Origin: Craspedostauros australis
Taxonomy: Eukaryota; Bacillariophyta; Bacillariophyceae; Mastogloiales; Achnanthaceae
Length of the DNA stretch: 64,000 nt
Direction of reading: 5' to 3'
NCBI GenBank assembly: GCA_026770025.1
Contig: JAMXDE010000022.1
Span: 806,001 to 870,000 of the forward strand
Below, piece by piece: positions 10,021 to 50,418 of the stretch. Position 1 is the first letter of the stretch. Every line of letters starts with the position of its first letter. A model generated the notes under the pieces. The model saw nothing but the letters and a program-made list of their open reading frames with translations, had not been told where the DNA came from and did no database searches. Position numbers and translations under genes: made by a program.

Positions 10021-10539
10021 GTGACAACATTGCGATACCTGTACCCAACCATACTGTACTGGTCTGTACTTGCGAAAAGTCACGGGTGCTTGAGAAACTG
10101 CTTGCGATCGATAAAAGCACCACGTACGTGTGGTAGGAAATGACTCTTGTTCTACTCGTATGTATTTTACCATATTGCATGTATCCAGGTCCTCCTATCT
10201 GGTTCCATGGAACTTGGGACGGAGATTCGAGATTCACGATTCTCTGTCGGGCTTTGTCTTCTTTTGAATTCAGCCGTATGGTATGGTACCCATCTGCACT
10301 CGTCTTGTGACCATCTGATTCAACCACACCCGCCTGCACTTTCCTCCGAACGAATCAATATTCTTGTCCATTCGGAATGGCGCGCAACATTGCTGACGGC
10401 CCGTTCGACGCGTCCTCGGCATGTTGCGTGGCACGTGCATGCCCTATTATGCATATGGGTATATGCCGGTCGTGGGTGTATGTCCACAATACGACAAACG
10501 GCTCAAAGACAACCGGCCATCCCAAATCACAGCGCTGTC
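10021..10539. other. Intergenic between the two hexuronate genes
   Basis: 519 bases separate the two same-strand genes. The frame of the downstream gene stays open to about 10147, but the sequence there does not resemble the family. It includes TACTCGTA at 10153-10160. Probably the 3' end of the first gene and the promoter of the second. Confidence 0.45.
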
Positions 10540-26968: not shown

Positions 26969-27147
26969 GTTTATACGACCTTTCGCGCTCCGTCTTTGCA
27001 CCTATCCGTCGCGCATCCGCCGTTTGCCGTACGCCGTTAGCGAGAGAGGCACCGAGGCACAGCGCAGATCCGGGAGAGTTCGCTCGTCGTTGAGGGGGGT
27101 CATACATTCGAACGTATACGAAGTTGGAGAAGGTGAGAACAGTGATC
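26969..27147 (+). other. Copia 5' leader
   Basis: 179 bases between the left LTR and the first ATG of the polyprotein. The primer-binding site should start here, but the bases after the LTR (GTTTATACGACC) lack the TGG that pairs with a tRNA CCA end. A half-tRNA primer, as in Drosophila copia, is possible. Confidence 0.5.
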
Positions 27148-32118: not shown

Positions 32119-32261
32119 CTCAAGGATTAGTCGGTCTTATGCTGCGACTGCGTCGGCGACGCTTTTCTCCGCCTCCTTTCAACTCCATGTGGAACACATG
32201 GAGGGGGTACGGAATCTGAGGTATGTGTATTGGACTCTGTCGGTGTTCTTGCGTGGTATTC

Positions 32262-35200
32262 TCACTTGGGTGCTTCTGTCGGACGTCGAATTTGGAAACC
32301 TGTGCGCGAGTGGACTTGCATCCACTTGGCTAGTGGTCCGGCGGCCATGCGGGTATGGAGTAGCCTTGCGGCCTGCTCCATCCACAGGGCTACGCTTGCT
32401 GCGTCGGCGTCCCTTCCTGGGTAAGACTTGCGGATGCGCTTGTGCGCAATATTGTTGTCTTGGAGCTTGCCGGCCAGATCTTCCGACCTGGCTCGCATGG
32501 CCTCCATCATATCTTGCTCAGCTGACTCGGCTTCGTGAAACATGTCATGATTTCGAAGCCGCCATTGCTCCCACGCTACTTTCCATACGCGTCGGGCCAG
32601 CTCTGCCCCCCACGTTAGGGGCGATCGTCGCGATCCCTGACTCACCAGGAAGTCTGTCTGTATGCTCACCCACTTGGACCCGATCATTCCTCGCGAGAGG
32701 GAGATTTGGCCTATCTGTCGTTGCTGCTCCACTGCTTCCGCCGTTGAGCCTCGCACGCTAGTCGATTGCAGGTAGGCCGCTCCGGCGAACTGGCTTTTCA
32801 ACATCGCTGTCATTGCCGCCGTGACTTGTGGACTCGTCGGGTACTTCGCCATCCACATCCGGATTCCGAGTAGGTGCTTCTTCGTCGCCTCCTTCCGGTG
32901 CTCCGCGGGGCATTCCCAGATGTGCTTCGAAGTCTCTTCCGCACCACAACTGGGGCATTGGCTGGATTCTCGGAGCCCCCACTGCTTCATGCGTCGTCCC
33001 ACGGCTGCTTCCCCTGCGACCAGCTTGAACGTCAGCGCCGCGCTGGCGTGATCCAGACCCTTGATTGCCCTGCTTACCACCGGCCAACTGACTTCCGCTG
33101 CCTGGTGTACCACTTTCCGTTTGCGTAGGATCTCGAAGGTTGATGCGGCCAGACCTTCCTCGGCTATATGTGCGTAGCGCACCGAGGTTATCTTCATATG
33201 CCTGAAGAGGCATACTTCCTCCCCTTCGATGATCCCATCATAAGGCGTGGCTCCCTGGTTGGATCGTCGTTGCGCCCCGGCCAGTCTGTCAGCTTCCACG
33301 TTCATTCTCGCCCAGTCGTCCAGTTCGTGCCATGGCTTGCCGTCGTCTTGGTGTCCCTTCACGTGTCTTCCGACGATCTCTATCGGTAGTCGTCGCATTT
33401 TGTGCCTGGTGGCCCTCATGAGATCTGCGTCGGTCGCTTTGGCGGTCATGTACCACTCGGTGTCCAGAGCCTTGAGGGCTCCCACGTTGTCGCATCCTAC
33501 GGTGGCTTTTCCGGCGAGGATTCGCTGGGAGGTGCATATGCTTTGTAGCATTACCATGAGACTGTACAGCCCGGACAGCTCCGCCCGGTGCGACTGCATG
33601 GTGTCGCTGCTGCGAGGTGTCCCGCACGTCACCCAGATCTTGGTTGTCTGGCCTCGAGACTTCCCGGTGACGACCGCGCCTGCTGCGCCTTGCCCGTCGG
33701 CGACGGACCCGTCACTGCAAGCGGTGAGCGTGCCGTCGCGGATGGCTTCTCCCAATATTGCTTCCTCTCCTTCCATCTCCCATGCCGCTATCGCCCACGC
33801 CGAGGATTCTGGCAGTTGCCTGATGGTCTCTTGTAGGTTAAGCGCTGCCGGCTGGGGCATGCCTGGTATGCCTGGCGCCGATGCCGTGATCGTGATGTTG
33901 GGTCCGCTGTGGTATCCGTCCACCAGTCCCGTGCCGTGCGTCGTCCTGCCTCTGGTTTCGGTGTATTCTTTCTTGCGTCCACGTCGAGGGATGCGCCTGT
34001 AATATATTGCGTCTTGGCCTGCCGCCGTCACTCTGTCTGCTCCGGGGTCATACCGGAATTGGGGCACCTGGGAGCTGTAGCTGCGCCATTGACCCAGGGA
34101 CTTCGCCAGCGTTCTTGTCTGCCCTCGTGTGGGCGGGTAACACCGGTCGATCGCCTTCTTCCATTCCTTCCACTGTGTGGGCGTGGGCTCTCCTACCGGG
34201 GGCCATTGCAGCCGGCTCCGGCGCAGTGGTATTGGCCCAGGAGAAGTAGACTCGGCTAGGACCTCGTCTCCGCGTACATTCGTTATATCGGAAACCCATA
34301 GCACTTTCTTCGCAATGCGGCATTGGTTGACTGCTTGGAGCGAAGCCTTGGGTAGGTCGAGCGCAAGCACCCGTTCCATGATGAACGAGTCGCCTTCTCT
34401 GGGCTTCGGTATTGACTCCGTCTCGAACTGGAGCTTGACGCTCACGTGATTTAGCTCTGTCCATACTGATTGCATCCAGGATGGAGACAGTACCCCTTTC
34501 CATTGGCAATGCTTCCGTGTGAACACCTGGTCCACTCCCGCTTGCAACTCCAGAATGCTCAGCGCATTGCGCATTAGCTTTCCGGTGATCGTAGGTTGTC
34601 CCCAGTGCTTGACGATTTCCTCGATATGGCGAGTGATCTGAGTGTAATACAGGTGCGGGATCCCGAGGCCGATGGTCTTCCGTGGCCCGAACACCAGGGC
34701 TCGCGACACGTTTCGTTGTATCCCCATTGCAGGCAACGCTGATTGAAGCATTGGCCTCATTACGCCTTCGGATTCCTCCTTGGAGAACGTGGCGCTTGCG
34801 AGCGGATATTCCAGAGTCTTCATAATGGTGGAGTGTAGGGCTACTTTCGCCTGTCCTCGGAGAAGACCTCCCCGTCGAACTGCGTCCGCCCACTTGCGGG
34901 CTTTTTGGGTGTACATCCGCACGTTGTCTTGCTGATCTCCGTCGTGACGGACCATGACTCCAAGCGCTTTCCTTGACTGGCTGGCTGACAGGCGAAGTAG
35001 AGTCGACCTTTCGTTGCTGTCCGGCTGCCTGATGCTGATGCTCCCTGGGATTTCTTCCTCATCGCAGTACGCCCATTCCTTGCCGTCCCATTTGAATGCT
35101 AGCAGGTACCAGTAGCTCTTTTTTGGCTCGAGGGCACCGCCTGTGGCTCTGAGCATACCTTCCCACGTGTCGACCACCCGTTGTATCTCCTTTATGCATT

Positions 35201-37946
35201 CCTCGTTGTTGGTCGGGTCCGTCTGTATGGTGTGGATAATGTCTGTGTCGTCGACGAAGGAGAAGCACACTAGCTGGACCGTCTCGTTGGTCACGGGGTG
35301 TCGTGTGGTGAATCCGTAGCCTCTTTCGGCCATGGTCTTCATCAATGGTGAGCTCATGGCGACCCATCCGGCTGGCGATATTCCCAGTCCTTGCAGTAGT
35401 CCTTGAAGTTTGGGCTCTCTTTTCGGATAGGTGGTTCGTGACAATCCGTAACCTGTTAGCACGTGATGCTTCATCGCCTCCACTGCTGCTACCACGCTCG
35501 TGCTTACGACTGGTGGCACTCCGATGCTACGCATGCTGAGTTGCAATGGTACGTGTGCCATTCGGTCGTAGCAACTTTTCGCGTCATTCGAGCACACGAA
35601 GCTTGTGCACCCTGTGCTCCGGATTATGTCGCTTGTGAGCCGGTTGTTCAGGCTTACTTCCGCCGCGCTGCGCTGCTTCCGACTTCCGTATTGCTCTTCG
35701 GGTAGTAGGCCGTGGGCTTCTGCGTGGCTCATCATTTCCCGCCCTATCTTTTTGAGGTTGGCATTGAAGTCTCCTTCTACTAAGCTGATGGTACGGAACC
35801 TTTCAACTCTGTAGTTGCCTTCTTCTTTCAGCAGCGTGATGTCTGAGCAGCGGAGCCACCTTTGCAGGTTGTACCCTGACCTTAGCGAGACCTCGCGCAT
35901 GGCTGCATCAGCCGTTGCGACCTCGGGGATTTTGGCGTTGGCCTTCCACATGCCGAAGTGCAGACCTGATGGCCCTGATGCCGTGCGCTCTCGAGCTTTC
36001 GCCCAAGCTTGCTGGTGCTCCTTGGTGGTAATCTCAAACCGGATATCGCTCCACAATGGTGACTGGCTGGTTGCGTGCAGCTGCTCCAGCAATGCCATGG
36101 AGTACTGGTCCATGGAGTTTCCGTGCCGACGTGCTGCGAATCTGATGCCTCCTTGCTCCAAGCTGCGCTTGAACCCGTCGGATTGCATCGGCGTGACATA
36201 TGCTTGCCTATACTTCTGTTCGTTGGCTTTCATGCACTGGGCGATGACTTCCTGCTCTTTGCTGAATGTGCGTTCTTCCCCATTTCCATCCTTGGCGATG
36301 ACTGCCGTGACCTTGCTTCCGCTAGAGTCTCCTTGTATTGCGCGTTTGATGGACCTGAAGGTCTCCGCTGTCTCCTCTCTTGTGATGAGGATGGCGAGTG
36401 CGGTGCTGGCGGGTGTGTTGCCTGCCTCCGCCATTTCGTCCGCTCGTTGTTCGAGGAATGTCCGTCTGTGTGTGAGAGCTTCGCGTTTGATTCGTTTCCA
36501 GTGCTCATGGGCTTCTTTTCTTTTCCGTTGGATGTCGTCCAGAGTGAGGTGTGCCGTTGGTTGGCGTACGCCTGCTGCTTTTTTGGCACGGTCATACCAT
36601 CTGGCACTGACCCTTGATCCCTGCCGTCGCTTCCACGCTATCTCCCAGAACTTTTTCTCCATCGCCGCCTTTTTCGCTTTCGGGGAGTATGGCACTCTGC
36701 CCGCGAACACTCGTCTGGATCCCCGTTCGGCCTGCGTCACGATTCTCGAGCGCTCCGTGTCGATGTCCTCGATCTCCGCGATAATAGCGTCCGTCATTGC
36801 TTCACTCCTTCGCACTGCTGCCAACACTGCCGCCGACCGCTGTGTGAGCTTGGCGTCTTCATAGCCGGCTGTCACTGCTTTCTGATATCTTTTCAGCGTG
36901 GCTGGCTTGTTGGTCTGCAATCGTCTGCCTTCGAACTTCTGTGTCGGTCGGCTGCGTGTGCCGAAGATGGATTCACTGGATATTTCTATCCAGGCTGTGC
37001 GGTGGTCCCAGCTTCCGAATTGACTGTAACCCGCTCGTTGTACCATCACTGATTCGGACACCCAGATGCTGTCTATCACTCTTTCCGATTCCGATCGTAT
37101 TTGGGTGGACACCGGTGCTTGGCTCGGATGTTTGCTGAGTATTGTTTCCTTCAGCCCTTGTCGTTGTAGCATCGTTGCCATCTGCGAGTTTGTGACTTGC
37201 ATGTTGATGTCGCCACCAATGATGATTGTTTCTCCCGCTTCGTGCCATTTGTGTATCTCCTCTCCTAGGTCTTGTATGAGCATTGCAATGGGCGCCGTTG
37301 TGATCCCTTCAGACTCCAACCAGGTTGCGTGCTGATTTGCTACCGTGCGCGGCCCTTTTCCGGATGACGTTGGGATGTAGACGCTGACCACTCTCACGGC
37401 TTTGTCGTCTTTTCCTCGAAGTGTCATGCTGGCCCATCTGCCTAATTTCCTTGGGTCCTCGTGGGAGAGTATGTGCCTTCCCGCTATGTTGTTGATGAGC
37501 AAGCATCCTGTCCCTCCCCATTGCCTTACCGGGCCCATTTTTTCCTGTTGGTTGTGTGCCATGTTTTGGCGCCACGAGCTGAACTGGCCTTTGATGCGCG
37601 AGTGCCACGAGTGGCGTTTCGCGACCTTGGACCAGTTCAAGCCAATCTCGGAGAGCAGAACCACGTCGAGCTTCAGTTGTTTAGTCCACTCCCATGCGTC
37701 TCTGTTCTTCCAATGGCCGGTCTCTTCGGGTAGACAGCCCACGTTGAGAGCACCTATGCGTAATGTGTGGTGCCCTTTGTCGCGAGGGTTGTCTCCCCAG
37801 TAGGAGACCTGGGGGTCGCGCTCATTCCGACGCGCGTCCTCCCCTGATGCATCCGTTAGGCTTGCGGAGGTGGGTGTTGATGCTTCCCGTTCCTCCAGCC
37901 CAACGTTAATCAGTGGATTGGCCCCCTGCCGTGCTTGAGCCGGGGG
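32262..37946 (-). CDS. Non-LTR element ORF2: endonuclease, reverse transcriptase, RNase H, zinc knuckle
   Basis: The frame is open from just after a TGA at 37947-37949 to the stop at 32262 and encodes nearly 1,900 residues. The APE endonuclease begins TLRIGALNVGC near 37750 and shows LSEIGL, IIIGGDIN (about 37200-37225) and SWDHRTAW. The RT region has EEQYGSRKQRS, SNDAKSCYDRM and the catalytic FVDDTD (about 35241-35260). RNase H shows CSDGSVADG, SHRAELSGL, GCDNVGAL and GHQDD...VEADRLAG. A C-terminal CPSC...H...EC knuckle lies near 32914-32962. No ATG precedes the endonuclease domain; the first in-frame Met (QNMAHNQ) is inside it. The start overlaps the ORF1 end by about 41 bases in the +1 frame, so ORF2 probably depends on frameshifting, stop-reinitiation or a non-AUG start. 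The enzyme nicks target DNA and reverse transcribes the element's RNA there. Confidence 0.9.
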   Translation of the reverse strand, partial: PPAQARQGANPLINVGLEEREASTPTSASLTDASGEDARRNERDPQVSYWGDNPRDKGHHTLRIGALNVGCLPEETGHWKNRDAWEWTKQLKLDVVLLSEIGLNWSKVAKRHSWHSRIKGQFSSWRQNMAHNQQEKMGPVRQWGGTGCLLINNIAGRHILSHEDPRKLGRWASMTLRGKDDKAVRVVSVYIPTSSGKGPRTVANQHATWLESEGITTAPIAMLIQDLGEEIHKWHEAGETIIIGGDINMQVTNSQMATMLQRQGLKETILSKHPSQAPVSTQIRSESERVIDSIWVSESVMVQRAGYSQFGSWDHRTAWIEISSESIFGTRSRPTQKFEGRRLQTNKPATLKRYQKAVTAGYEDAKLTQRSAAVLAAVRRSEAMTDAIIAEIEDIDTERSRIVTQAERGSRRVFAGRVPYSPKAKKAAMEKKFWEIAWKRRQGSRVSARWYDRAKKAAGVRQPTAHLTLDDIQRKRKEAHEHWKRIKREALTHRRTFLEQRADEMAEAGNTPASTALAILITREETAETFRSIKRAIQGDSSGSKVTAVIAKDGNGEERTFSKEQEVIAQCMKANEQKYRQAYVTPMQSDGFKRSLEQGGIRFAARRHGNSMDQYSMALLEQLHATSQSPLWSDIRFEITTKEHQQAWAKARERTASGPSGLHFGMWKANAKIPEVATADAAMREVSLRSGYNLQRWLRCSDITLLKEEGNYRVERFRTISLVEGDFNANLKKIGREMMSHAEAHGLLPEEQYGSRKQRSAAEVSLNNRLTSDIIRSTGCTSFVCSNDAKSCYDRMAHVPLQLSMRSIGVPPVVSTSVVAAVEAMKHHVLTGYGLSRTTYPKREPKLQGLLQGLGISPAGWVAMSSPLMKTMAERGYGFTTRHPVTNETVQLVCFSFVDDTDIIHTIQTDPTNNEECIKEIQRVVDTWEGMLRATGGALEPKKSYWYLLAFKWDGKEWAYCDEEEIPGSISIRQPDSNERSTLLRLSASQSRKALGVMVRHDGDQQDNVRMYTQKARKWADAVRRGGLLRGQAKVALHSTIMKTLEYPLASATFSKEESEGVMRPMLQSALPAMGIQRNVSRALVFGPRKTIGLGIPHLYYTQITRHIEEIVKHWGQPTITGKLMRNALSILELQAGVDQVFTRKHCQWKGVLSPSWMQSVWTELNHVSVKLQFETESIPKPREGDSFIMERVLALDLPKASLQAVNQCRIAKKVLWVSDITNVRGDEVLAESTSPGPIPLRRSRLQWPPVGEPTPTQWKEWKKAIDRCYPPTRGQTRTLAKSLGQWRSYSSQVPQFRYDPGADRVTAAGQDAIYYRRIPRRGRKKEYTETRGRTTHGTGLVDGYHSGPNITITASAPGIPGMPQPAALNLQETIRQLPESSAWAIAAWEMEGEEAILGEAIRDGTLTACSDGSVADGQGAAGAVVTGKSRGQTTKIWVTCGTPRSSDTMQSHRAELSGLYSLMVMLQSICTSQRILAGKATVGCDNVGALKALDTEWYMTAKATDADLMRATRHKMRRLPIEIVGRHVKGHQDDGKPWHELDDWARMNVEADRLAGAQRRSNQGATPYDGIIEGEEVCLFRHMKITSVRYAHIAEEGLAASTFEILRKRKVVHQAAEVSWPVVSRAIKGLDHASAALTFKLVAGEAAVGRRMKQWGLRESSQCPSCGAEETSKHIWECPAEHRKEATKKHLLGIRMWMAKYPTSPQVTAAMTAMLKSQFAGAAYLQSTSVRGSTAEAVEQQRQIGQISLSRGMIGSKWVSIQTDFLVSQGSRRSPLTWGAELARRVWKVAWEQWRLRNHDMFHEAESAEQDMMEAMRARSEDLAGKLQDNNIAHKRIRKSYPGRDADAASVALWMEQAARLLHTRMAAGPLAKWMQVHSRTGFQIRRPTEAPK

Positions 37947-40326
37947 TCAAGGAGTGGTTGGGCTCTACCTCTGCATGTTTGGCCCGTAACTCCTCGATGA
38001 TGCGGTTTTTCTCGATGAGTTCTTGTCGTTGTTCCTCCAGTTTTTGTCTGTTGGTCTCCGCTTGCTGCGCTTCTCGTGCTTGTCTCATGACTGTTGCTAG
38101 CTCGTCCTTCCTCATTTCCTCACTTTCATCGGTGGACTCTGGTATGCTGTAGATGGTGGACGCGCGGGATTTTCCGCATTCGGATCTGAACGTTTGGAAT
38201 GACTCGTCTTCCAGTCTTGGTTTTTTCGCCACGGGGGATCCTGGGAGGGAATCGTCTTCTATTTCTTCCATCCCTTCGATCTCCACTGGTCCCATCTCCT
38301 CATCCATTATGAAGTCCAGCTCTCCTTCGAACTCCACGTCCTCGTACCCTTTGCCCGTTGCGTCTCTGGCGTATCCAGCACTCATCTCCAGAATGTTGTC
38401 GTCGAACCAATCGTCGGTGGATGAATTGATTTCCGTTCTGCACCGGATGGCGATGGAATTGAGGATGTTCTTTGCCTGGTCGTAGCGGTCGTCGAACGCT
38501 ACTATGCTGAGCGCGTCTTCGTCTCCGTCCACCATATGGGTGGTGCTGACGTCGTGGATGAATGGATTCCCTTCCGGTGTGCGCTGATTGCTCAGGAATT
38601 CGCGAAGGGTGGTGGTTTTCGTGTCCCCGTCGGGGGTGTCGAGAGCGACGTCACCGTCGAGCCGAAAGCGCTTGAGCTGCCGAACGTAGCGTTGGTGCTT
38701 GCGAGTCATCTTTCTGAGCTTTGCGGCTGTGTCGGCGCCGATGGTGGCAGTGCCCGGATTTGGGACAAACCTATAGTTCAGCCCTCCTCGGTCCGCGCCC
38801 TTCATGTTGAACACTTTGCCCAGCGCCTTTGCCACTTTCCGTGCATGAGTGGTGTTTGCGTGAAGGTGTAGGGCGACCCACGGCGTGTTGATCCACGTGC
38901 CTCCTTTCTTTTTGTGCTCATCTCTTGTTTCGTCCGACACCTGCCCCAGGAATTTGGTCCTGCCTCCTACTTTCAGTTTGGGCTGAATCTTTTCCAGCAG
39001 GCCGTTGATAACTCCGATTGTCTGTTTTGCGTTGGTGAAGTTTCCTGAGTAGGCTAGGAATCCGACATCCGTGATGTTCTCCGCGTCCTTTAGGTCTCTG
39101 ATGTACGCGTACTCTCCCGTGGCATATCCTCCTTCCATTTCTGCTCGGCGACTTGTCAGTGCGTTGAGGTTCTGGCTACCACCCAGCTTTAGCTGCATGT
39201 ATACGTCCGTCTCCTTGGCTGTAGGTTTGGCCCTGCACACGAACTTCTTGAGCTCGTCCCAGTTCGTTGGGATTGGCTCGCTCTCGGAAATGGTGCCTGC
39301 CGACTTGTGCCGCTTGTACCAGGGGTATATGACGAGCTTGGGCTCTATCGTTAGCGCGTGGTCAAACCACAATTCGAATCTGGATTGGAAGTCTCGGATT
39401 GGCGTCGATGAATTTTTTGGGATGGCCAGTCGGAGGTCGAAGCGTTCGTTGAATTTTCGTTTGGGGGTTGCCATCATTTGGGTTGAGGATGCCTGTACTC
39501 TGATCCATGGTGCGTCGTCGCCTGGTTTCTGGGCTTCCGGAGTTTCCTCAACGGATCCATCTGGTGCCACTACTCTGACTTTGGTTTTTGGAGGCTTTTT
39601 GACCACGTGTTGTGTTAACGATGTCTGTCGGGTGCGTTTGACGAGGATTGATTCCAACTGGATTCCATCCATGTCATCGTCGCTGTCAGAGGATGCGTCT
39701 GCTGCCATGATTACATCGGAGTATTGGCATCCCATGTACCGTACGGCTGCTGCCCATGCCAACGTCATTTGGTTCCTTGCCATGGATTTGTTGTCCACGT
39801 GCATTTCCATCTTAAAGCACTCAGCTGGGTCCGTCTTGGATAGGTCTGCCACCAGTTGCTTGATTTTCACACGTTGGGGAGCATCTTGTGCCACTCGGTG
39901 GGTTCCGAATTTGTTGGTTCGCCCGTCCATCACCTTCTGGAAAAACTCCGAGAGCTCCTGTGTGCTGGGCATGTGGGACGATGCTGTAGATGTGTCCTTG
40001 CCTTCCCACTCCGCTTTCTGGATGTACATTCGTTTGGCTCTGTCATGGAGTGAGGATGGTCCTTCGTCATAGACGTCTGTAGCCCTGATGGCTTTGGCGT
40101 TTTCCGCCACCTGCTTTGGAAGTTTTTTCCATCGTGTTGTTTCCGGTTCGTACCACTGGATGGCGATTCTGTTCTGTTTCTCCATCATTTCGGCTGCCAC
40201 AACCTTCGGATCTGGCTCCGGAGGTGGCTTGGGTCCTCCTGTTTCTCCTGATGGTGTGCCTTGGTTCATTGGGCGCTCCGTATCGTTGGAAGTTTGCTTC
40301 AAACTTGTGCCGTTTGTTGACGTCAT
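37906..40326 (-). CDS. Non-LTR element ORF1 protein
   Basis: 806 residues from ATG 40326 to TAA at 37906. By position it is the ORF1 (RNA-binding, particle-forming) protein of the element. I see no CCHC knuckle and no RRM that I can name. Visible features are a Pro/Gly-rich N-terminus, an acidic ASSDSDDDMDG stretch, a basic KRTRQTSLTQHVVKKPPKTK segment, a long central globular part, an acidic patch near residue 690 with a possible nuclear signal (VAKKPRLEDE), and a C-terminal coiled coil (about residues 735-790, RQAREAQQAETNRQKLEEQR) that could form multimers. The family is unrecognised; function is inferred from context. Confidence 0.75.
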   Translation of the reverse strand: MTSTNGTSLKQTSNDTERPMNQGTPSGETGGPKPPPEPDPKVVAAEMMEKQNRIAIQWYEPETTRWKKLPKQVAENAKAIRATDVYDEGPSSLHDRAKRMYIQKAEWEGKDTSTASSHMPSTQELSEFFQKVMDGRTNKFGTHRVAQDAPQRVKIKQLVADLSKTDPAECFKMEMHVDNKSMARNQMTLAWAAAVRYMGCQYSDVIMAADASSDSDDDMDGIQLESILVKRTRQTSLTQHVVKKPPKTKVRVVAPDGSVEETPEAQKPGDDAPWIRVQASSTQMMATPKRKFNERFDLRLAIPKNSSTPIRDFQSRFELWFDHALTIEPKLVIYPWYKRHKSAGTISESEPIPTNWDELKKFVCRAKPTAKETDVYMQLKLGGSQNLNALTSRRAEMEGGYATGEYAYIRDLKDAENITDVGFLAYSGNFTNAKQTIGVINGLLEKIQPKLKVGGRTKFLGQVSDETRDEHKKKGGTWINTPWVALHLHANTTHARKVAKALGKVFNMKGADRGGLNYRFVPNPGTATIGADTAAKLRKMTRKHQRYVRQLKRFRLDGDVALDTPDGDTKTTTLREFLSNQRTPEGNPFIHDVSTTHMVDGDEDALSIVAFDDRYDQAKNILNSIAIRCRTEINSSTDDWFDDNILEMSAGYARDATGKGYEDVEFEGELDFIMDEEMGPVEIEGMEEIEDDSLPGSPVAKKPRLEDESFQTFRSECGKSRASTIYSIPESTDESEEMRKDELATVMRQAREAQQAETNRQKLEEQRQELIEKNRIIEELRAKHAEVEPNHSLTPGSSTAGGQSTD

Positions 40327-40455
40327 GGTCGATCTTTCGCGGCTGTTGCCTACTTGCGGATTCCGTAGAAGTTGTACTGGTGTCAGAATTTTTGTTTGGA
40401 TTTTTTGCTTTACTAGTGTTATCGTTTGTTTGTGTTTTGGGTGTTCTCGTCATTA
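40327..40455 (-). other. 5' leader of the non-LTR element
   Basis: 129 bases between the ORF1 ATG and the right target-site duplication. An internal promoter would be expected here in an active element; none can be named by eye. Confidence 0.6.
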
Positions 40456-40472
40456 TCCTTCGCTCTGAGATA
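40456..40472. repeat. Target-site duplication of the nested non-LTR element, right copy
   Basis: Exact copy of 32093-32109 and in the same copia codon frame (L-R-S-E-I), which confirms that the copia polyprotein was continuous before insertion. Confidence 0.93.
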
Positions 40473-42761
40473 GAACCACGAGTACTGTCAACAACCCTCA
40501 CGCATGACGAGAAGAAGCAACTCGCATACATGCAACTGATGGATCAATTTAGCGATCGTGTGGATGAACTCCACGATGGTGTAAACCTAGAAAACACCAT
40601 CTCATGCATCCTGGACCACAAAACCAGTTCGCGAGGGCGTGACAACGACTATATCAAACTCAGGGTGGCATGGGCCAATGGTGAAAAGTCCTGGCATAGC
40701 ATGGATGACATCCGGCTTGATGACCCCTATATCATTGCCAAGTACGCACGGAACAAACAACTGGAAAATCATCCACAATTCGCATGGACGACCGAACTGA
40801 TGGAGCAGAACCAAGCAATGCAGCGCGTGTTAGCAACAGAAGCCCACAAGAAGAAAGCCAACCGCAAAGGAGTACGATTCAAATTTGGCATACAGGTTCC
40901 CAACAGCGTTCGACATGCACTGTACCTGGACAAGATAAACGGAAACAACCTATGGCATGAAGCGCTGCAGAAAGAGCTTGGTCAGATCAACGGCTACAAA
41001 ACATTCAGACCAGTCACCAAGGACGATGACCTGACCACATTCACACGGATTCCATATCACATAATCTTCGATGTGAAGTTCGATTTGCGGAGAAAAGCTC
41101 GCCTTGTGGCCGATGGCAACCATACGCAGCCAGGCACAGAGGATGTATACTCCGGAGTAGTCGCTATCGACTCCGTGCGGATTGCTTTCATCATCGCGGA
41201 AATGAACGGACTCATCGTGTGTGCGGGAGATGTAGGAAATGCTTTCCTTTACGCCAAGACCAATGAACGATGTTACATCACCGCAGGGCCAGAATTCGGA
41301 GAGTTGGAAGGTAGGCCACTGATCATTCACAAAGGTCTCTATGGCCTACGCACTTCCAGTGCACGGTTTCACGAACATCTGGCCGCGAAGTTCAGAAGTC
41401 TCGGTTTTACCCCGTCACAATACGATGCAGATCTGTGGATCAGACCACGACAAGACCATTACGAGATGATCACGACGTATGTCGATGATGTTTTGGTTTT
41501 CAGCAGGGAACCATCCAAGATCATGGACGAACTGAAGAAAGAATACGTAATGAAGCAAGTCGGAGCACCGGATTACTACCTCGGAGGGAATGTCGAACCC
41601 CTTGACAACTCATGGCAGAAGCACGGTATCCAATTGGCTTTGTCTGCGCGTACATACATCAAAAACGCAAGTGAGAAAATCGAACAAACCATTCAACGCG
41701 AGCTGAAAACCTGGAGTACCCCGATGGCCGAATCATACCATCCGGAGACTGATGACAGCGAACTGCTATCCGGGTACGAGGCCAGCCAATTCCGCACCAT
41801 GATAGGTTGTGCGAATTGGATTATCACCCTGGGGAGATTTGATGTTCAATACGCCGTCATGGCACTTGCACGATTCTCCATGGCACCCCGCAGAGGCCAC
41901 TTCAATGCGATGACACGAGTCTTTGGATACCTGAAACATAATCCCGCAGGAAGGTTGTACTGTGATCCCAACCCACCACAAGTCGAACATGGTCCACAAC
42001 CATTGTCCGAGAAATGGCGTGAATACTATCCAGACGCAACTGAGGAGCTACCATACACGATGCCCATCGCAAAAGGGAAACCAGCACACATGACAGTGTA
42101 TGTGGATGCAGACCACGCACATGACCTTGTCACGCGCAGATCAGTGACTGGCATCATTGTAAAGATCAACGGTATGGTGGTCAGAACGTACTGCAAACGC
42201 CAACGAACCGTTGAATCCTCTACCTATGGATCCGAATTGGTGGCGGCAAGAATCGCTGTGGACATGATCATCGAACTCCGAACGGCATTACGAATGATCG
42301 GGGTACCACTTGCAGGACCAACACAAATGTATGGAGACAACAAATCAGTGGTGTTGAACACGACTATTCCTTCCAGCGTGCTCAAGAAAAAGCACTGTGG
42401 AATCGCGTTCCACCGAGTAAGGGAGGCCATCGCAGCAGGAGTTTTGGTATTCATTCACATCGACTCAACAAAGAATGAAGCAGACATCTTGACGAAGCCG
42501 CTTGGGAAATCCGCATTCACCCAGCTTCGTGCGATGTCTTTGTTTCGCGTACCACCTCACCTGGTTGGAGTCAAACTAGCGAAGAAACTGAAAACGAAAG
42601 AAGGTGCAAAGGACAAGACAACAGCTGAGCCACCCATGCAGGCAACAACAAACCACCTCGTCTACAAGTATACAACGATCAAGCCATCCGTTGGATATTC
42701 CATCCCAAGATGTCATGAAGGGGCGTATTGGAGCGTAGGCGACGGGAATGAAGTCAAATGA
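40473..42761 (+). CDS. Copia polyprotein, 3' part: reverse transcriptase and RNase H
   Basis: Native copia codons resume after the duplication and run to TGA at 42759-42761 inside the right LTR. RT motifs: NLWHEALQKELGQI, KFDLRRKARLVADG, CAGDVGNAFLYA, KGLYGLRTSSARFHE and the catalytic YVDD (41478-41489). RNase H: VYVDADHAHD, TVESSTYGSELVAARIA, YGDNKSVV and the copia hallmark EADILTKPL. About 763 residues, without frameshift. The open frame technically extends upstream to 40116, but those codons belong to the antisense strand of the non-LTR element. Cut off from its own start codon, this half can no longer be translated as part of the polyprotein. Confidence 0.92.
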   Translation, partial: EPRVLSTTLTHDEKKQLAYMQLMDQFSDRVDELHDGVNLENTISCILDHKTSSRGRDNDYIKLRVAWANGEKSWHSMDDIRLDDPYIIAKYARNKQLENHPQFAWTTELMEQNQAMQRVLATEAHKKKANRKGVRFKFGIQVPNSVRHALYLDKINGNNLWHEALQKELGQINGYKTFRPVTKDDDLTTFTRIPYHIIFDVKFDLRRKARLVADGNHTQPGTEDVYSGVVAIDSVRIAFIIAEMNGLIVCAGDVGNAFLYAKTNERCYITAGPEFGELEGRPLIIHKGLYGLRTSSARFHEHLAAKFRSLGFTPSQYDADLWIRPRQDHYEMITTYVDDVLVFSREPSKIMDELKKEYVMKQVGAPDYYLGGNVEPLDNSWQKHGIQLALSARTYIKNASEKIEQTIQRELKTWSTPMAESYHPETDDSELLSGYEASQFRTMIGCANWIITLGRFDVQYAVMALARFSMAPRRGHFNAMTRVFGYLKHNPAGRLYCDPNPPQVEHGPQPLSEKWREYYPDATEELPYTMPIAKGKPAHMTVYVDADHAHDLVTRRSVTGIIVKINGMVVRTYCKRQRTVESSTYGSELVAARIAVDMIIELRTALRMIGVPLAGPTQMYGDNKSVVLNTTIPSSVLKKKHCGIAFHRVREAIAAGVLVFIHIDSTKNEADILTKPLGKSAFTQLRAMSLFRVPPHLVGVKLAKKLKTKEGAKDKTTAEPPMQATTNHLVYKYTTIKPSVGYSIPRCHEGAYWSVGDGNEVK
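42717..42725 (+). promoter_or_regulatory. Candidate copia polypurine tract
   Basis: GAAGGGGCG lies directly before the right LTR, where plus-strand synthesis is primed. It is purine-rich but interrupted by one C, and it overlaps coding sequence. Confidence 0.4.
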
Positions 42762-42937
42762 GTCGAATGGAATGACAGCAAGGAACGACGGTGACAACAA
42801 GAACAAGAACAACAAAACAAATACACGGCAGTGGTCGTGACAACAACAGCAGTAGGAACAAACACAAGTAGGAGCGTTAGGCTCATAATCCCAAAAGTAG
42901 AACAGAACACATCATCGATACACACCACGTTCCAATA
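42726..42937 (+). repeat. Right LTR of copia element (212 bp)
   Basis: Identical by eye to the left LTR and followed by the GTATC duplication at 42938-42942. On the minus strand it gives the interrupted gene a premature ending (LLERGVYR, stop at 42912). Confidence 0.93.
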
Positions 42938-45548
42938 GTATCCATCCATCGGGACACGGCGTCGATGAGCCGCTGCCGTCTCTGCTTTCCTTGCTCCTCT
43001 TTTTCTTGGTCGTCGTCGTCGTCGTCGTTGTTGTCGTCATGGAATGTTCCGTCTTCGACTGCGTTTTCGACTCCGTTTTCGATTGCGTCTGCGATCGAGA
43101 TCTACACCGCTTTCCCTTCTCGTCCGTTATCCGCTTGAGGAAGCGACCCCCACCTTCATGGATGGACAGCACCACCTGCTTGATGAGATTGGTCTTGTCA
43201 GCCCGCGTCTGCAGGCTCTCATACTGGGCGGAATACTGGCCGACGATGTCTTGCAGTCGCTGGTTCCCGGGATATTCCTGGTAAGGTTTGCCTTTGCCAA
43301 AGAGGATGTCAATATCTGTGGGTGCGTAGACGATGGAATGCCCATTCGATTTGTTCTGCGCCATTTCTAGTATCTTCTGCTGTTCTTTCTGATGCTGCAG
43401 CCGCAGCTGTCTCAAGAACCCCTTTCTTTGCACCATGCCCAGCGAATTCACTGGCCAGGACTGCGGGGGGAATCCGAATGCCATGAGTTCGTACTGCGTC
43501 TCCATCGGTGTGCCTGCGATGTGTTCGAGCGGGTTATTGATTGCGAAGAGCGAGCACGAGCGCGTGTGCGTGCGTTGTAGTGCAACGACGAAAAGGTGAT
43601 GAGAGCATAGATAGGGAGATGTACGGTACGGTATGGTACGGTACGGTATGGTACGGTATGGTATGGTACGGTATGGTACGGTACGGTATGGAAGGTATGA
43701 TAAGGATGGGGATGAGCATACAATAACAGAATGAGACACACATGCAAAGCGTGGAATGCGGCATGCCGGGATAGAAATCGAATCGAGCAATGGCATGCTG
43801 TCGTTGCCACAATCCCAAAGCAAGACTTACCATAGTGACTGCGGAAACGAACGCGACCTCTATCCGTGATCGTGAGTTGCAGCAGGGACATCGCTGGGAT
43901 GATACGCTTGTCGTTGTAGCAAAAGTGAAAGGCCGCCACGCGAAAGGGCACGGTGTCAAAGACTTCGGTGGCGCACTTGTGTAGAGAGATGTTGAAGATG
44001 CTGTCGGTTTTGGTTGGAACCGTGATGGTCTCGCCAAAGTCCATGCCTTGATCTTGCGGTTGGTCTTGCGGTTGCGCCTCCATGGATGAATGTCTATCCA
44101 GATCAGCACGTCCATTGACACCGACACAGATGCAAAACACAATACCACGCTTCTGAGAAGTCTCCGATTGCACCATGGACACCAGCTGGTACCAAAGGGC
44201 TTGATACTGGTGGAAGGCAGAGTGTTACATTGTTATATAATACATAGCAAAATGGCAGAGCAGTGATGGTGGAGCAATGGTGGTGCAATATTTCCGTTGC
44301 AACCGCAAGGACAACATCGCACCGCGGAGCAATGAAGTGGCGGAGATTGGCGTGGGTAACATTTGCGAAAGTTTGTGCAGCGTAACATGGTGCAGTGCAG
44401 AGAACCATAGAAAAGGAAAGGCGAATGGATGGGTGAATCGATGGATGTGAGAGAAGGGATGCAGGTGGATCGTCGCGCTCTCCCAAAAGTTGCCTAAATG
44501 CATTCGACACAGCACAGGTATACTGGTGTATATAACACATACGAGTAGTACTCGTCGTGCACCATACGGTGAGACATCGCGAATTGCATCACAATGTAAC
44601 ATCTGGTAATCTGCCGCGCAATGGCTAACAACAAGGCAGAGCATGGCAGGAAATACTTACAAGATGGTGCATGGTCGCGTAGGAAATGAGAGAGGGAAAG
44701 ATGCAGGAAACCTGCCGTCCCAAGCGATCCAGGAAGGTCTGATGCGAGCCGGCCTTGAGTGATTGCTGGCTGAGGGGATCGAGGTCCTTGTAGGTGATGT
44801 CACGGCATAGCCTGTCACGTCCAAACAGCAGCCTCTTCATGCGCAGGTGATCGAAGAGACGCTTGGCCGCAGCCTTGGGATTCGCCCAAGACTCGGCGCG
44901 CAGGAAGCTGATCTTGAGCTTGTGCATCCAGGTCGGGCGTAAGAACATGCAGCGTTCGTACTCCACCTTGAGCAAGGGCAGCTGATCCTGCGAATCCATG
45001 TCTGTGGGACTTTTCAATTGGTTGAGAGGAGGCTTGTCGAAAGGATGCAGCGTACCTCGCGACTGACGTTGGTGCCGCTGCTTCTGATCCTCCTTGAAGA
45101 GCCTCTCCAGCTCGCGATGCAACAGCTTGAGCTGCTGGGTTGTGAGCTCATCCGATTCATCCAGATCGTCTTCCACACCATGGATTTCTTCGTAGACGCG
45201 CTGACGCTCGTTGATGTTGAGCATGGCCATGTCCTTCGCAATCATCTTTTCCGTGGCCTGCACCAGTGATCTGGATTCGGCTGCGTTTCTCAGACTCTGG
45301 TTGCTCCACGAGGACATGGTGGACGACATGATGGACTGATCGCGGTACTGCTGCTGTTGTTGCTGTTGTTGCTGCTGTTGCGTCGAATCCTCGCCGCATA
45401 TTGGTACCGAGCAGGGCGCTGGCATGCAGGACAGCACATTGTTGCGATGGATCGACCCGTTCCACGAGCAATCGCTGAAGGAGCATGCGGTTGGAACGGA
45501 GGTGGAGCTTTGATCGCTGTCACTGGAGAAGGCATGCGCGGAGTTCAC
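42938..45548 (-). pseudogene. Sec14/CRAL-TRIO-like + DUF6824-type gene, interrupted by retroelements
   Basis: Exons 45548-44661, 44206-43831 and 43513-42938. Introns have GTAAGT donors and CAG acceptors and rebuild alignable sequence: exon 2 starts YQALWYQLVSMV, and the exon 2-3 junction SHYG-TPMETQYELMAFG matches FHFGSPLECMYELKTYG of the paralog at 2295. PolyQ lies near residue 60, then LNINERQRVYEEIHG, the helical lead FLRAESWANPKAAAKRLFDHL, the Sec14-like core, and from about residue 481 the DUF6824-type domain (PTDIDILFGKG...GGGRFLKR). Copia insertion falls at about codon 612 of 637; the remaining 24 codons are at 26678-26751. The present frame reads eight LTR codons and stops, losing the domain's last helix. 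The open frame runs upstream to about 45660 without an ATG, so a further 5' exon is likely. The truncated product may still be made. Confidence 0.85.
43621..43690. repeat. Pentanucleotide satellite GGTAC/GGTAT
   Basis: About 14 units of GGTAY in tandem inside intron 2 of the interrupted gene. Likely to vary in length. Confidence 0.85.
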
Positions 45549-47461
45549 TTCCGTTTGTTCCGCAAGTGGCTCATATGGCCATTCGAGTCCATCTGCGTTT
45601 CCGCCATTGTCGTAGGGGGAGAAGTTTCTTGTAATTGTAGTAAACTTGGTTTTATGATTACTTGACTGAGGTGCGATGCATTGCTCAGTTTGTTATTACG
45701 GTGTAGTGGGTGGCACTAGTAGAAACCCCACGATGTGTTCATGCATTGTACTCGATGGCTGGGACAGACCTTTGAGAAGGTTACGCAAACCCTTGAGAAG
45801 GTTTCGCAAACGCTTGAGAAGGTCGTGTCTTGCCAAGAGGTCGCCATAGATACTTGCGTGGGCGCATGTGATTGGGGGTTGGCTTACATGTGCGACTTCA
45901 AGGACACGGTCTCAAAACAGACCGTCCGTTGGAGGATGTGTGTTGTGATGGAAAAACACCGATGATGTGGTCGAAATGTGTGATGGTTGTTTTGGCGCGA
46001 ACTGGCCAATTGGTATCTTATTTTGTTCGTCTTCAGTCCCGCTTGCAGTCACGATCAATGAGATGAGGGTGATCACAAAATGGACTGATGGTCGTCACAA
46101 AACCGATTCCGACAAAGTTGTCGCCATTGCTGATGGTGCTGCCGCTGAGTGTGGTGGATGGTGAAGGATAGAAGCCTGTTGAGCCATTGTTGATCCCCTC
46201 GTTGATGCCATTGCTGGTAGTGCTGCATCCATTTGCGATTGCGCCTGATAGGACAGTGTCCGCATTGTTGCTTGAGCTCGGCACACCACCAACGACATCC
46301 CCATGAATCGTTCGCTTTACCATGATGCCTGTGACACTCAGTTGCTTCTATCGAATTGAGATCAACCGTGCTAATAGTAATACTCTCTTTTCGTCTTGGT
46401 TGTTGCCGTTGATTCTGCCTTTGATTTGATGTCTTTCCGCCAATGCTCTCGTGTTGTCGGACGATCGTGCGGTGTGTTGTGATGCGAGTACGGCCTTTGG
46501 TGTGGGATGGTGTCTCTGGTCTGTTCTTCTCCCTTTGCCTCCAATCACATCTCTGTCGGTGAACATGGACGAAGATGCGCGCTCACTGTTCGCTGTTGCC
46601 TTTGTCGCTTGTCAGTCGTTGTTGATCGTTGCTGATCGTGCTGAATGGTGCGCGTGCAGGTGGCCAGCTCAGCCTTTGTCGCCATCATGTTCTTGGGACT
46701 TCTCGTGGAGTCATGTGTAATTAATGTTAATCGAATATTACTATTTTTTGAATTGTAGTTACGTTCGACATGCCGTAATTATTTCATTTATGTATTCCAC
46801 CTTTTTTACCAACAATCTGCGAACAAACCGCGCACAATCCCAGGGCAATTCTCTTGTTGCGACGCGCAGCTCGCGCAACATTCGTCGCTGCTTCTAGAAC
46901 CTCATAGAAACCAAGAACAGCACGACATGTCTTGTCGCGACTTGTACGCCCGTCTCGGCTGTACTTGGATTGCCTTCACAGTCGAGTCGCTGGGCTATTT
47001 CTCTCTTTTGATCTCGATGTGTGCGAAGGGGTCATGACACGGCAAATCACGGAATGACGGCGCGATAACAAGGGCACAACAAAGAACAGCCGGTCGTGTT
47101 GGGGGACACTGATAAGCCCGAACAGTGTTCAATTTGTCCGTGGAAGCAAAACGTGACGAAATCGCCTGACCGCCGTTCGATGTTTGTCGCCAAATATCAC
47201 AGGACTGAAAAGAGGATTTGAAACACGAATATGAACGTATTCGTCACAAAACACGAAAACAACGCAGGAACCAACGCAGAACTTGATGATGGAAAGGATC
47301 CAAACAAGGCCACACAGGTTGGCAGGAGAGAGAGAGAGACGAGTCCTCCTTGGACCCTCAACTCCGCACAACATTGCCCAGATACTTCGCTCCACTTCAC
47401 TTCATTTCATTTGACAACGACAGTCCTTGTTGCCATTTCCATCATCGTGACAAGCAGAACG
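45549..47461. other. Intergenic, divergent promoters
   Basis: Between the interrupted gene and the selenoprotein gene. Holds a 21-bp tandem repeat (45771-45825) and an AT-rich stretch around 46720-46800. No coding region beyond short frames; the probable missing 5' exon of the minus-strand gene may lie in the left part. Confidence 0.45.
45771..45825 (+). repeat. 21-bp tandem repeat, 2.6 units
   Basis: The unit YTTGAGAAGGTTWCGCAAACS is repeated, encoding LEKVxQT on the plus strand in a short frame. Its role is unknown. Confidence 0.75.
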
Positions 47462-48540
47462 ATGAGATTCCAAGCAGCCGCTGTGAATGGGTTGCTGGCT
47501 GGCCTGATCGGGCTGGTCGCCCTCGCGCCATCCCGGCAAGGATCCGCCAGGGTGCATGCCTTCCACCCTGCCTTGATGCGACCAGCCAAGAGAACGGCAT
47601 GCCTACTGGCACCAACCGATCCAACGACGGAGGACTGCGGCTGTGAGGAACCATCCTTGACGCAAGACACGCTATACAGCGGCAAGCCATCCAACGTCGC
47701 CAGATCCCTCAATCATAGACAGGCCGTCCAGGGACAGACCGTCCTCAATGCGCTCGGCGACGAGTTCCAGATGGAGGACCTCCTGCAGACGATGCCTTCC
47801 ACGAATAATCCCACCACCAAGAGCATCGTCGTCTTCCTGCGATCGCTTGGGTGACCCCTGTGCCAAGAGTTCATCTTGCAGTGGAGCAAACGCATTGATG
47901 AGCTCGAGGCAGAGGATGGGGTCAGAATCCGACTGGTCATGGTTTCCATTGGTCTTCCGGAAAAGGCCGCCATCTTGATTGACCACCTTGGGCTGGGATC
48001 CCGCGGTGCCGAGTACCTCTTCGTCGGTGCGTCGTCATGACTTGCATGCAGCTTATCACCTATTTGCCATGTAGTCGGTTGCCTGTTTTCATGCCTGCAT
48101 CAGCAGCGTCATTCCACATGCAGCCATACGCAATCTCCCCATGATGGACTGTCAATCCAATGACACTCATTTCTTTCTCTGTTCGCTTTCTCCGTACACT
48201 TTCCTCCGTCTCTTCCGCAGATCCAACCAACAAAATCTACGACAAGTTGTACCTCAATCGGGGCGTGAAGGAGACCTTCTTCACGCCCTCCACTCCGTAC
48301 GCCTTCCTAGAGCGATTCCTGAAGCCGGGTGGCATGAACGAGTTTGGCGAAGTCATGTCGAAATGGAACAAGGCCATTTTCATACCGCCGAAGCAAAGCC
48401 AGGCCTTCCTGCAGGGCGGGACGTTCGTCTTTGATCAGCAGCAGACCCTCCTGGCGCATTACGATGAAAGCACTGGCGCGCACTCTGACATTGACCATGT
48501 CATCGCGATAGCTAAGGCGTCGTCGCCGCCGTCTTCGTAG
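47462..48540 (+). CDS. SelU-family (AhpC/TSA-like, PRXL2) selenoprotein, plastid-targeted, in-frame TGA
   Basis: Exons 47462-48026 and 48221-48540; GTGCGT donor, CCGCAG acceptor; 294 residues if TGA 47852-47854 is read as selenocysteine. Sec131 begins the thioredoxin-type motif VVFLRSLG-U-PLCQEF, where relatives have CxxC. After the TGA the frame stays open through the intron and gives the family's landmarks: VMVSIGLP, LFVDPTNKIYDKLYLNRG, TPYAFLERF, QGGTFVFD and AHYDESTGAHSDIDHVI. SelU/FAM213 proteins have a thioredoxin-like fold (PF13911), and Sec forms are reported from diatoms, algae and fish. Residues 1-33 are a signal peptide ending VHA before Phe34, the diatom plastid motif, so a plastid redox or peroxide role is likely. 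A SECIS-like stem follows the TAG stop. The alternative, a disabled gene, is unlikely because the only interruption sits exactly at the catalytic Cys position. Confidence 0.88.
47852..47854 (+). other. TGA predicted to encode selenocysteine
   Basis: In-frame TGA at codon 131 of the SelU-family gene, followed by Pro-Leu-Cys134. The position equals the peroxidatic/redox Cys of CxxC relatives. It lies 172 bases before the exon end, and coding similarity continues on both sides. Confidence 0.87.
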
Positions 48541-50418
48541 ATGGAATGCAGATGGCCATCAGCAAACATTTGTTGCGGCGGAGACGCTGAAGCAGAAACA
48601 ACAACTGTAAATACCGATCCATGATCTTGGCGCCGGAAGCCACGGCAGTGTAAACGACGATTCGATACTTGGCAAAGCGCGACATCGGGCAAACGAAAAT
48701 GACCAGCGGGTGGAATGACATCATCTGCACCGCCGCGAACTGTTCTGTTGTGGATCAAGCAACAGAAAACAAGCGCGGGATGACGATTGAACAAACAAAT
48801 GTATGCGGACTCGATGGCGTGCAGAAGACAGCATCCGAATGAATCACCATCATTCTAGATCATCCCATGCTTCGCGCCAGCATCCGTTCCCATGCATCAT
48901 TCGCGGGTCACTCGAACATACCTTTTTGTCGACGCTGCTATACCATATCGACGAAAACTTGTATGCGACAAGCTTCGCTGTCTTGAGGAGGAGAGAAGCC
49001 ATCTCTTCAGTTCCATGAAGCTCTGATGAAGAAGCCAACAATCACCGATCAATGAATACATGAACCGTTTGGAGCATGCGTCCGTTCTCCACTTACAAGT
49101 CCTCTTCACCAAGAAATCAACGAAAGCGGGCGGCTGCCTATCTGAAATAGAGAAAGTCAGTCTATTTGTATTTCCAATCGGCATGCACCCCGGGATTGCT
49201 CCTTTCTGCTGCACTGCCTGAGAGATTGGTGTGCAGCCGCAGTCAGAACTTCTTTTGCTACTTTTTGCGAGTGTGCTCCCTTTCCTGCAATTGTGGTTGT
49301 GATTGCGATGACGGCTGTCGCTGTCTTTGGACGAAGACCATATAATAGATCACATGATTTAATTCGTGCTGTTTGGAGAGGTGATTCAATGGAGCAGCAA
49401 AGGCGCGAGGAGCAAGACAATCAGAAATCGGTTACTCGGTATCTCAGCAAAAGTGCATGGGGATGGTAGTACTCCCGTGCCACATAACGTTCACGATCCT
49501 CAACATGGCATCAACGATCAACGATCAACGATCGACGATCAACTGCAAATATCTGTTGCCTTTGCTCTGGTATCTCCAAAGGAAGTTCTCGCTCGCCTCC
49601 CTCTCGCAGAGTAGATCTTCCCGTCAATACAATTTCCCCCATCTCCAACAACCCTCACGAACCAGCCACCAACCATTGCCAACCATTGCCAACCTCCAGG
49701 ATCTGCCTTCTCTCAACCGCCGGTGAGCATCAGCACCTGTTAGCACTGCCTGTGGCGAACATGATGGAAACGGATTTGGCTGACGGAGACGAGTGATTCG
49801 TTTGCGTCATGTGACACGATCATGGAACAAACAGCAATCACAACGGAGCTGTCAAATCGACGATGACTTGTCAGCCAACGAGATGGTCATCCGTTTTGTG
49901 GCGATGGTATTTGTGGAATCGGTCGGATGACAGACGAAAACAAACAAGTTGAAACGGGATTGTCTAACGGACATATAGATATCCATTGACGAACACAAAC
50001 GTGGCGAATGTTGTTTCCAAACAAACGGACAAAGTTCGCGCCAGAAATCGCCAATCGCACAAGAATGACTGCGTGAAGGAAAGATGAGCGATGTGAAATG
50101 ACGTGATGCCACGTGATGTGATGTGAACATTGTTGCACGAGTAGATACAGCTTCGCGACAGCGGGATGAAGAGATGCGTTTGCAAATATCTATTATATTA
50201 TACACCATCAAGTCCCAACCGCTTGGACATGAAGCCCTTGCACCATCATTCCATCAAAGCATCGTTCCACAGCTTTGACGACACAACCATTCAGCTATTC
50301 AACGGTCCAACCATCCATCAAGACAACAAGACAACAACTGAAGACAACAATTGAAGGCGACAATTGAAAAAGTGAAGAGCAGGTGTTGAGTTGTTCGCAA
50401 AGAGCCGATGAGACGTTG
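48541..50418. other. 3' region of selenoprotein gene and intergenic DNA
   Basis: The first part is the 3' untranslated region with the SECIS candidate. Beyond it no gene is seen. A heptamer repeat (ATCAACG, about 49508-49542) and a CCAACCATTG repeat (about 49671-49692) are present. The right end should be the promoter of the PDZ-protein gene. Confidence 0.45.
48609..48670 (+). promoter_or_regulatory. Candidate SECIS element
   Basis: Lies about 70 bases after the TAG stop. It has the core ATGA (48621-48624), 12 bases, AA in the apical loop (48637-48638) and GA (48656-48657). Lower helix: AATACCGATC (48610-48619) pairs with GATTCGATACTT (48659-48670) with one mismatch and two bulges. Upper helix: GCCG (48632-48635) pairs with CGGC (48643-48646), with weaker pairs below. 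This order matches the eukaryotic SECIS that recruits Sec-tRNA to UGA. Not folded computationally; a second, weaker candidate starts at 48699. Confidence 0.5.

Follow-up and report, generated by a model that had tools for sequence, protein, structure and literature searches.

Selenocysteine (Sec)-containing SelU, Sec-containing peroxiredoxins, and AhpC proteins with a UxxC motif have already been described from diatoms in two studies (PMC2375036, PMC7539508). According to the latter, algae possess more than 1000 selenoprotein genes in 42 families, with 20 to 44 per diatom, Sec-SELENOU is among the four most widely distributed families, and prokaryotic homologs with Cys have been reported for AhpC_b of Thalassiosira oceanica (PMC7539508). 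SelL is characterized by two Sec residues located two residues apart (PMC3316567). The words chloroplast and plastid are absent from the main text of PMC7539508, and a literature search covering titles and abstract openings revealed no description of a plastid-targeted diatom selenoprotein, although one may still exist in print.

Here we analyzed a stretch of 64,000 nucleotides from Craspedostauros australis (hereafter the window), which contains on its plus strand what we consider, with high confidence, to be a nuclear gene whose UGA codon 131 is decoded as Sec, the predicted product being a peroxiredoxin-like selenoprotein that has a Sec-x-x-Cys centre and belongs to the PRXL2/SelU superfamily. 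Exon 1 (47462-48026) runs from an ATG with A at position -3 to a splice donor and is followed by a predicted GT-AG intron of 194 nt (48027-48220) and by exon 2 (48221-48540), which ends with a TAG stop codon (48538-48540). The joined coding sequence of 885 nt contains two in-frame stop codons, the TGA at codon 131 (47852-47854) and the final TAG, and read-through of the former yields a protein of 294 residues, 163 of which are C-terminal to the TGA. When four donors were tried with the acceptor at 48221, the frame stayed open (the TGA aside) only with the 48026/48221 junction. A codon-usage score trained on 25 other gene stretches of the same genome (3923 codons) was positive in the expected frame before the TGA (0.079), after it (0.256), and in exon 2 (0.287); it was negative in the remaining same-strand frames of all three parts and in the tested same-strand frames of the intron and of the 5' and 3' flanks; a single antisense frame, in the middle part, scored 0.175. 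The original prediction had placed the start, the TGA, the intron, and the final stop at exactly these positions, and its claim that coding sequence continues for 163 residues past the TGA and across a splice junction is borne out by the positive scores and the single open junction. A search of the genome with the protein itself, at E values up to 1, did not reveal a second copy of the gene. Standard annotation would cut the gene at codon 131 or begin it downstream.

Elsewhere in the window, three DUF6824 proteins, a type typical of diatoms, are encoded on the minus strand (2298-4694, 14779-16323, and 42915-43826), in keeping with a diatom-like origin of the DNA. Inspection of the open reading frame list by eye also revealed a Copia-like element on the plus strand (27094-42761), with its reverse transcriptase portion from 40089 and the remainder of the element to 32118, which is parted by non-LTR-like frames on the minus strand (32262-40449) and has the look of a nested insertion. 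Within 8359-11982, a frame with a sub-threshold match to mannitol dehydrogenase adjoins a frame that by eye resembles uronate isomerase and has no Pfam match at E values up to 0.001; the two are possibly a sugar-acid gene pair.

Judged from the gene content of its genome assembly (74.8 Mb in 90 contigs), this organism is equipped to use Sec. A tRNA-Sec with anticodon TCA was detected at 76.6 bits, the SPS2 gene carries a TGA of its own, and nine other genes have TGA at their redox position, namely two GPx (out of three GPx genes), SelT, one MsrA, two SelM, two SelU, and a gene designated L040, all in agreement with the original prediction that the window contains a selenoprotein gene. No eEFSec gene could be singled out in the genome, where 27 matches to TIGR00475 were found and none was above the cut-off. 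L040 (G000:C3:1897081-1897638, minus strand) is a further Sec-containing peroxiredoxin-like gene with the motif LRHLG-U-PYC and an A-F presequence; no Pfam family matches it above its cut-off, and its AhpC-TSA and Redoxin matches are below theirs. As to the final stop codons, those of the nine other Sec genes are TAG in five, TAA in three, and TGA in one, and those of 24 non-Sec genes are TGA in 13, TAA in nine, and TAG in two; TGA is thus rare as a final stop in the former set and common in the latter. The window gene ends with TAG, which counts in favor of the selenoprotein reading.

Against PF13911 (AhpC/TSA antioxidant enzyme, AhpC-TSA_2), the read-through protein scores 43.1 bits (E value 6.2e-11; cut-off 27), in a search that had been proposed along with the original prediction and that came out in its favor. 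The part after the TGA matches the family by itself (E value 1.4e-11), exon 2, which holds most of the match, is above the cut-off alone, and the part before the TGA has no match to any Pfam family at E values up to 1. Seven places in the genome belong to PF13911: exon 2 of the window gene, L001 and L002 (canonical SelU genes with TGA), L003, L004, and the Cys-containing genes L006 and L007. The identity of the window protein to four aligned relatives is 21-24%. Its motif reads FLRSLG-U-PLC-QE(F), and in the alignment the U column is occupied by TGA in L001 and L002 and by Cys in L006 and L007, just as expected from the earlier claim that TGA replaces the first Cys of a CxxC motif; L003 has no CxxC in the aligned position. 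The second position of the motif is Cys134 (47861-47863), a probable resolving thiol.

Homology also extends across the TGA, since the match to NF040769 (SelL-related redox protein; 43.3 bits, E value 2.9e-11, far under the model cut-off of 120) covers residues 116-284 and the similarity to the paralog L040 covers residues 16-287. It was considered whether one gene might end at the TGA and a second one start downstream, for which an in-frame Met codon later in exon 1 would make initiation mechanically possible; because homology spans the TGA, the preceding part has no Pfam match alone, and the redox motif would be halved, we regard such an arrangement as extremely improbable. The NF040769 match, as high in bits as that to PF13911, does not single out the window protein because L040 (44.1 bits) and the Cys-containing gene L037 (41.7 bits) score about equally.

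The original assignment to the SelU family holds in part: membership in PF13911, the UxxC motif, and the spliced structure stand, and SelU in the narrow sense does not, the canonical SelU genes of this genome being L001 and L002. These two read RRPG-U-[SF]-LCREH, and RRPG-[UC]-x-x-C-R-[ED]-H, which we take to be the SelU signature, is not found in the window protein, which reads LRSLG-U-PLC-QEF. Judged from its sequence, the window protein is a diverged PF13911 member of the PRXL2/SelU superfamily and, because of this difference in motif, not a narrow-sense SelU. Profile comparison gave a probability of 93.7 (E value 1.8e-7) against the SelU-type group of the genome, which itself matches solved chains of prostamide/prostaglandin F synthase, and 51.8 against the PF00578-type group. 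With the single window protein as query, only 3tdg was matched in the PDB (E value 0.05), and no homologs were found in prokaryote, phage, plasmid, and viral collections (tblastn with an E value of 0.01 for plasmids and phages).

Insertion of Sec would be directed by a SECIS element in the 3' UTR. Rfam SECIS_1 gave no match in the window at its gathering score, and at an E value of 10 none in 47400-49800, in five gene loci, or in the whole genome; we judged the model to be insensitive in this genome and therefore sought the lineage's own form of the element. Earlier SECIS scans had yielded ambiguous candidate lists. The heptamer GAATGAC, a core chosen post hoc by eye from output that contained the window gene too, occurs within 1000 nt past the stop codon in all ten other Sec genes (for L036 the kilobase starts at a fixed point in place of a defined 3' end), in one of 24 non-Sec genes (with the kilobase taken from the first in-frame stop downstream of the match, a position that may differ from the true 3' end where introns are present), and in six of 208 random kilobases (parts of the window and of 20 fetched loci on both strands, some overlapping the 24 non-Sec genes). 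The one non-Sec gene is L037, whose core lies in a repeat-like stretch. GAATGAC opens a SECIS-like hairpin in nine of the ten other Sec genes, and these nine unrelated genes (L001, L002, L022, L023, L024, L031, L034, L036, and L040) appear to share a lineage-specific SECIS with an invariant GAATGAC and a 3' GA. An ungapped alignment of these hairpins gave 87.3% pairing in the inner helix and 23 cells in which both sides had changed, and none of 500 shuffles attained the covariation score, a test that is partly circular because the 3' partners were chosen by pairing. The element was the unconstrained minimum-energy fold in six of eight other genes tested, and by leave-one-out score the chosen element ranked first within its kilobase for nine of the ten genes. 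The miss was L035 (G000:C4:2690501-2690671, minus strand), a SelM gene with TGA and a downstream GAATGAC, for which no hairpin with this core was found. Being common to ten other Sec genes, the core would aid selenoprotein annotation in this lineage.

In the window, GAATGAC is located at 48713-48719, 172 nt past the stop codon of the gene. This bears on whether the TGA could be a Cys codon of an ordinary Cys enzyme that was misread in sequencing or assembly, as TGA is one base away from both TGC and TGT. The repeated use of TGA for Cys at redox sites elsewhere in the genome (nine other genes), together with a downstream core so rarely seen after non-Sec genes, makes an error very unlikely.

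Two overlapping candidate elements, at most one of which can therefore be right, were considered for the window gene. Candidate (a) (48699-48738, plus strand) has ATGA at 48699-48702 in the context AAATGAC, AA 11 nt on, and GA at 48737-48738, and fits the published SECISearch pattern of NTGA, 10-13 nt, AA, 15-39 nt, and GA (PMC2375036). It is not the minimum-energy structure, lying 1.3 kcal above the free fold, and its lower stem has three pairs; in the structure scan, 15 of the 208 random kilobases contained an element as good with any core and one contained such an element with AATGAC, while six of ten known genes passed. Candidate (c) (48713-48790, plus strand) begins with the GAATGAC itself, ends with GA at 48789-48790, and has a helix of three plus two pairs around a mismatch. 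It gave the best leave-one-out score in the 3' kilobase (15.49), a value reached by five of the 208 random kilobases, and scores of nine other genes ranged from 15.22 to 26.31. Two further structures were rejected: candidate (b), with the core of (c) and GA at 48785, has no lower stem and lies 4.2 kcal above the free fold, and a GTGA at 49299 from the structure scan has neither the GAATGAC core nor AA in the apical loop. A covariance model (R1) built from nine other Sec genes failed to find a SECIS of the window gene within 48400-50400, with maxima of 7.6 bits for the coding strand and 10.8 bits for the opposite one, and gave 5.1 bits at candidate (a) (48701-48741). At the cores of its training genes, which match by construction, R1 scored 10.9-42.2 bits (33-42 with short loops and 10.9-19.6 otherwise).

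Taken as a whole, the sequence evidence for a SECIS of the window gene is suggestive, and this element, which the original prediction had left unmentioned, is the weakest link in the selenoprotein reading. Being weak next to those of the other Sec genes, the SECIS might have decayed or be in the course of doing so, leaving a one-time selenoprotein gene in which TGA now serves as a stop and the product is truncated or absent. Such decay appears unlikely, given that the 163 codons after the TGA are free of stops until the TAG, show coding-like usage across the splice junction, and retain an intact PF13911 match. We prefer the reading of a Sec-encoding gene.

The location of the protein was assessed from its N-terminus. 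Diatom plastid presequences follow the A-F rule, in which a signal peptide and a transit peptide are separated by an A-F cleavage site. On the basis of hydropathy and an A-F at residues 33/34, a putative signal peptide (residues 1-33; 47462-47560, plus strand) ends with RVHA before F34 (FHPALMR...), with a 12-residue hydropathy maximum of 2.69 from residue 11. The resulting RVHA-FHP, an A-F-x-P following a hydrophobic stretch, resembles GVSA-FQP of L040 and SAAA-FSP of the MsrA gene L031, and the plastid presequence of the original prediction is plausible, the N-terminus being similar to a bipartite one. However, a long gap separates the A-F from the hydrophobic stretch, whose end is close to residue 22, and the 25 residues from F34 include three basic and three acidic ones. 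Both features would also suit a true selenoprotein that is secreted, retained in the endomembrane system, or cytosolic, which we regard as the less probable but by no means negligible alternative in view of the shared A-F-x-P; because of them, our preference for the plastid as the most likely site of action is only moderately firm. The Sec-containing MsrA (L031; G000:C8:2268150-2268554, minus strand) has a short hydrophobic presequence ending with SAAA-FSP and is perhaps plastid-targeted as well. A plastid-addressed set of selenoproteins in one diatom, comprising the window protein, L040, this MsrA, and perhaps the SelU L001, all bearing an A-F presequence, is a tentative proposal with slightly less than an even chance of being correct.

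We infer the following course for the window gene. The spliced mRNA would carry UGA at codon 131, at which Sec would be inserted by the cell's Sec apparatus (the tRNA-Sec detected above and, presumably, eEFSec and SBP2) under the direction of one of the candidate SECIS elements. The product would be a thioredoxin-fold, peroxiredoxin-like protein in which, judging from motif and family, the selenolate of Sec131 might attack a peroxide or disulfide, after which Cys134 might resolve the resulting intermediate and either a thioredoxin-like thiol donor or glutathione might recharge the enzyme. If both Sec insertion and plastid location hold, the gene would connect selenium with the redox defence of diatom plastids in a concrete and testable way, and if the proposed plastid selenoproteome is true, selenium supply would directly limit plastid peroxide and methionine-sulfoxide repair.

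Compared with known systems, the window protein resembles selenoprotein U and the PRXL2 superfamily in its PF13911 match above the cut-off and in G-U-x-L-C-[QR]-E around Sec, but, unlike L001, L002, L006, and L007, it lacks RRPG before Sec. It differs from the SelL type described by NF040769 in having UxxC rather than the UxxU of animal SelL. L040 (23% identity over 282 BLASTP columns, E value 1e-8) is like it in having a similar motif, LRHLG-U-PYC, an A-F presequence, and a downstream GAATGAC, and differs in having no PF13911 match. AhpC_b of T. oceanica is described as likewise an AhpC/TSA-like diatom protein with UxxC (PMC7539508), and the window gene may represent the AhpC_b family or a relative of it, the comparison being with the description of AhpC_b alone. 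Very probably, the window gene encodes a genuine new selenoprotein, though a fairly ordinary one, of a kind already known from diatoms.
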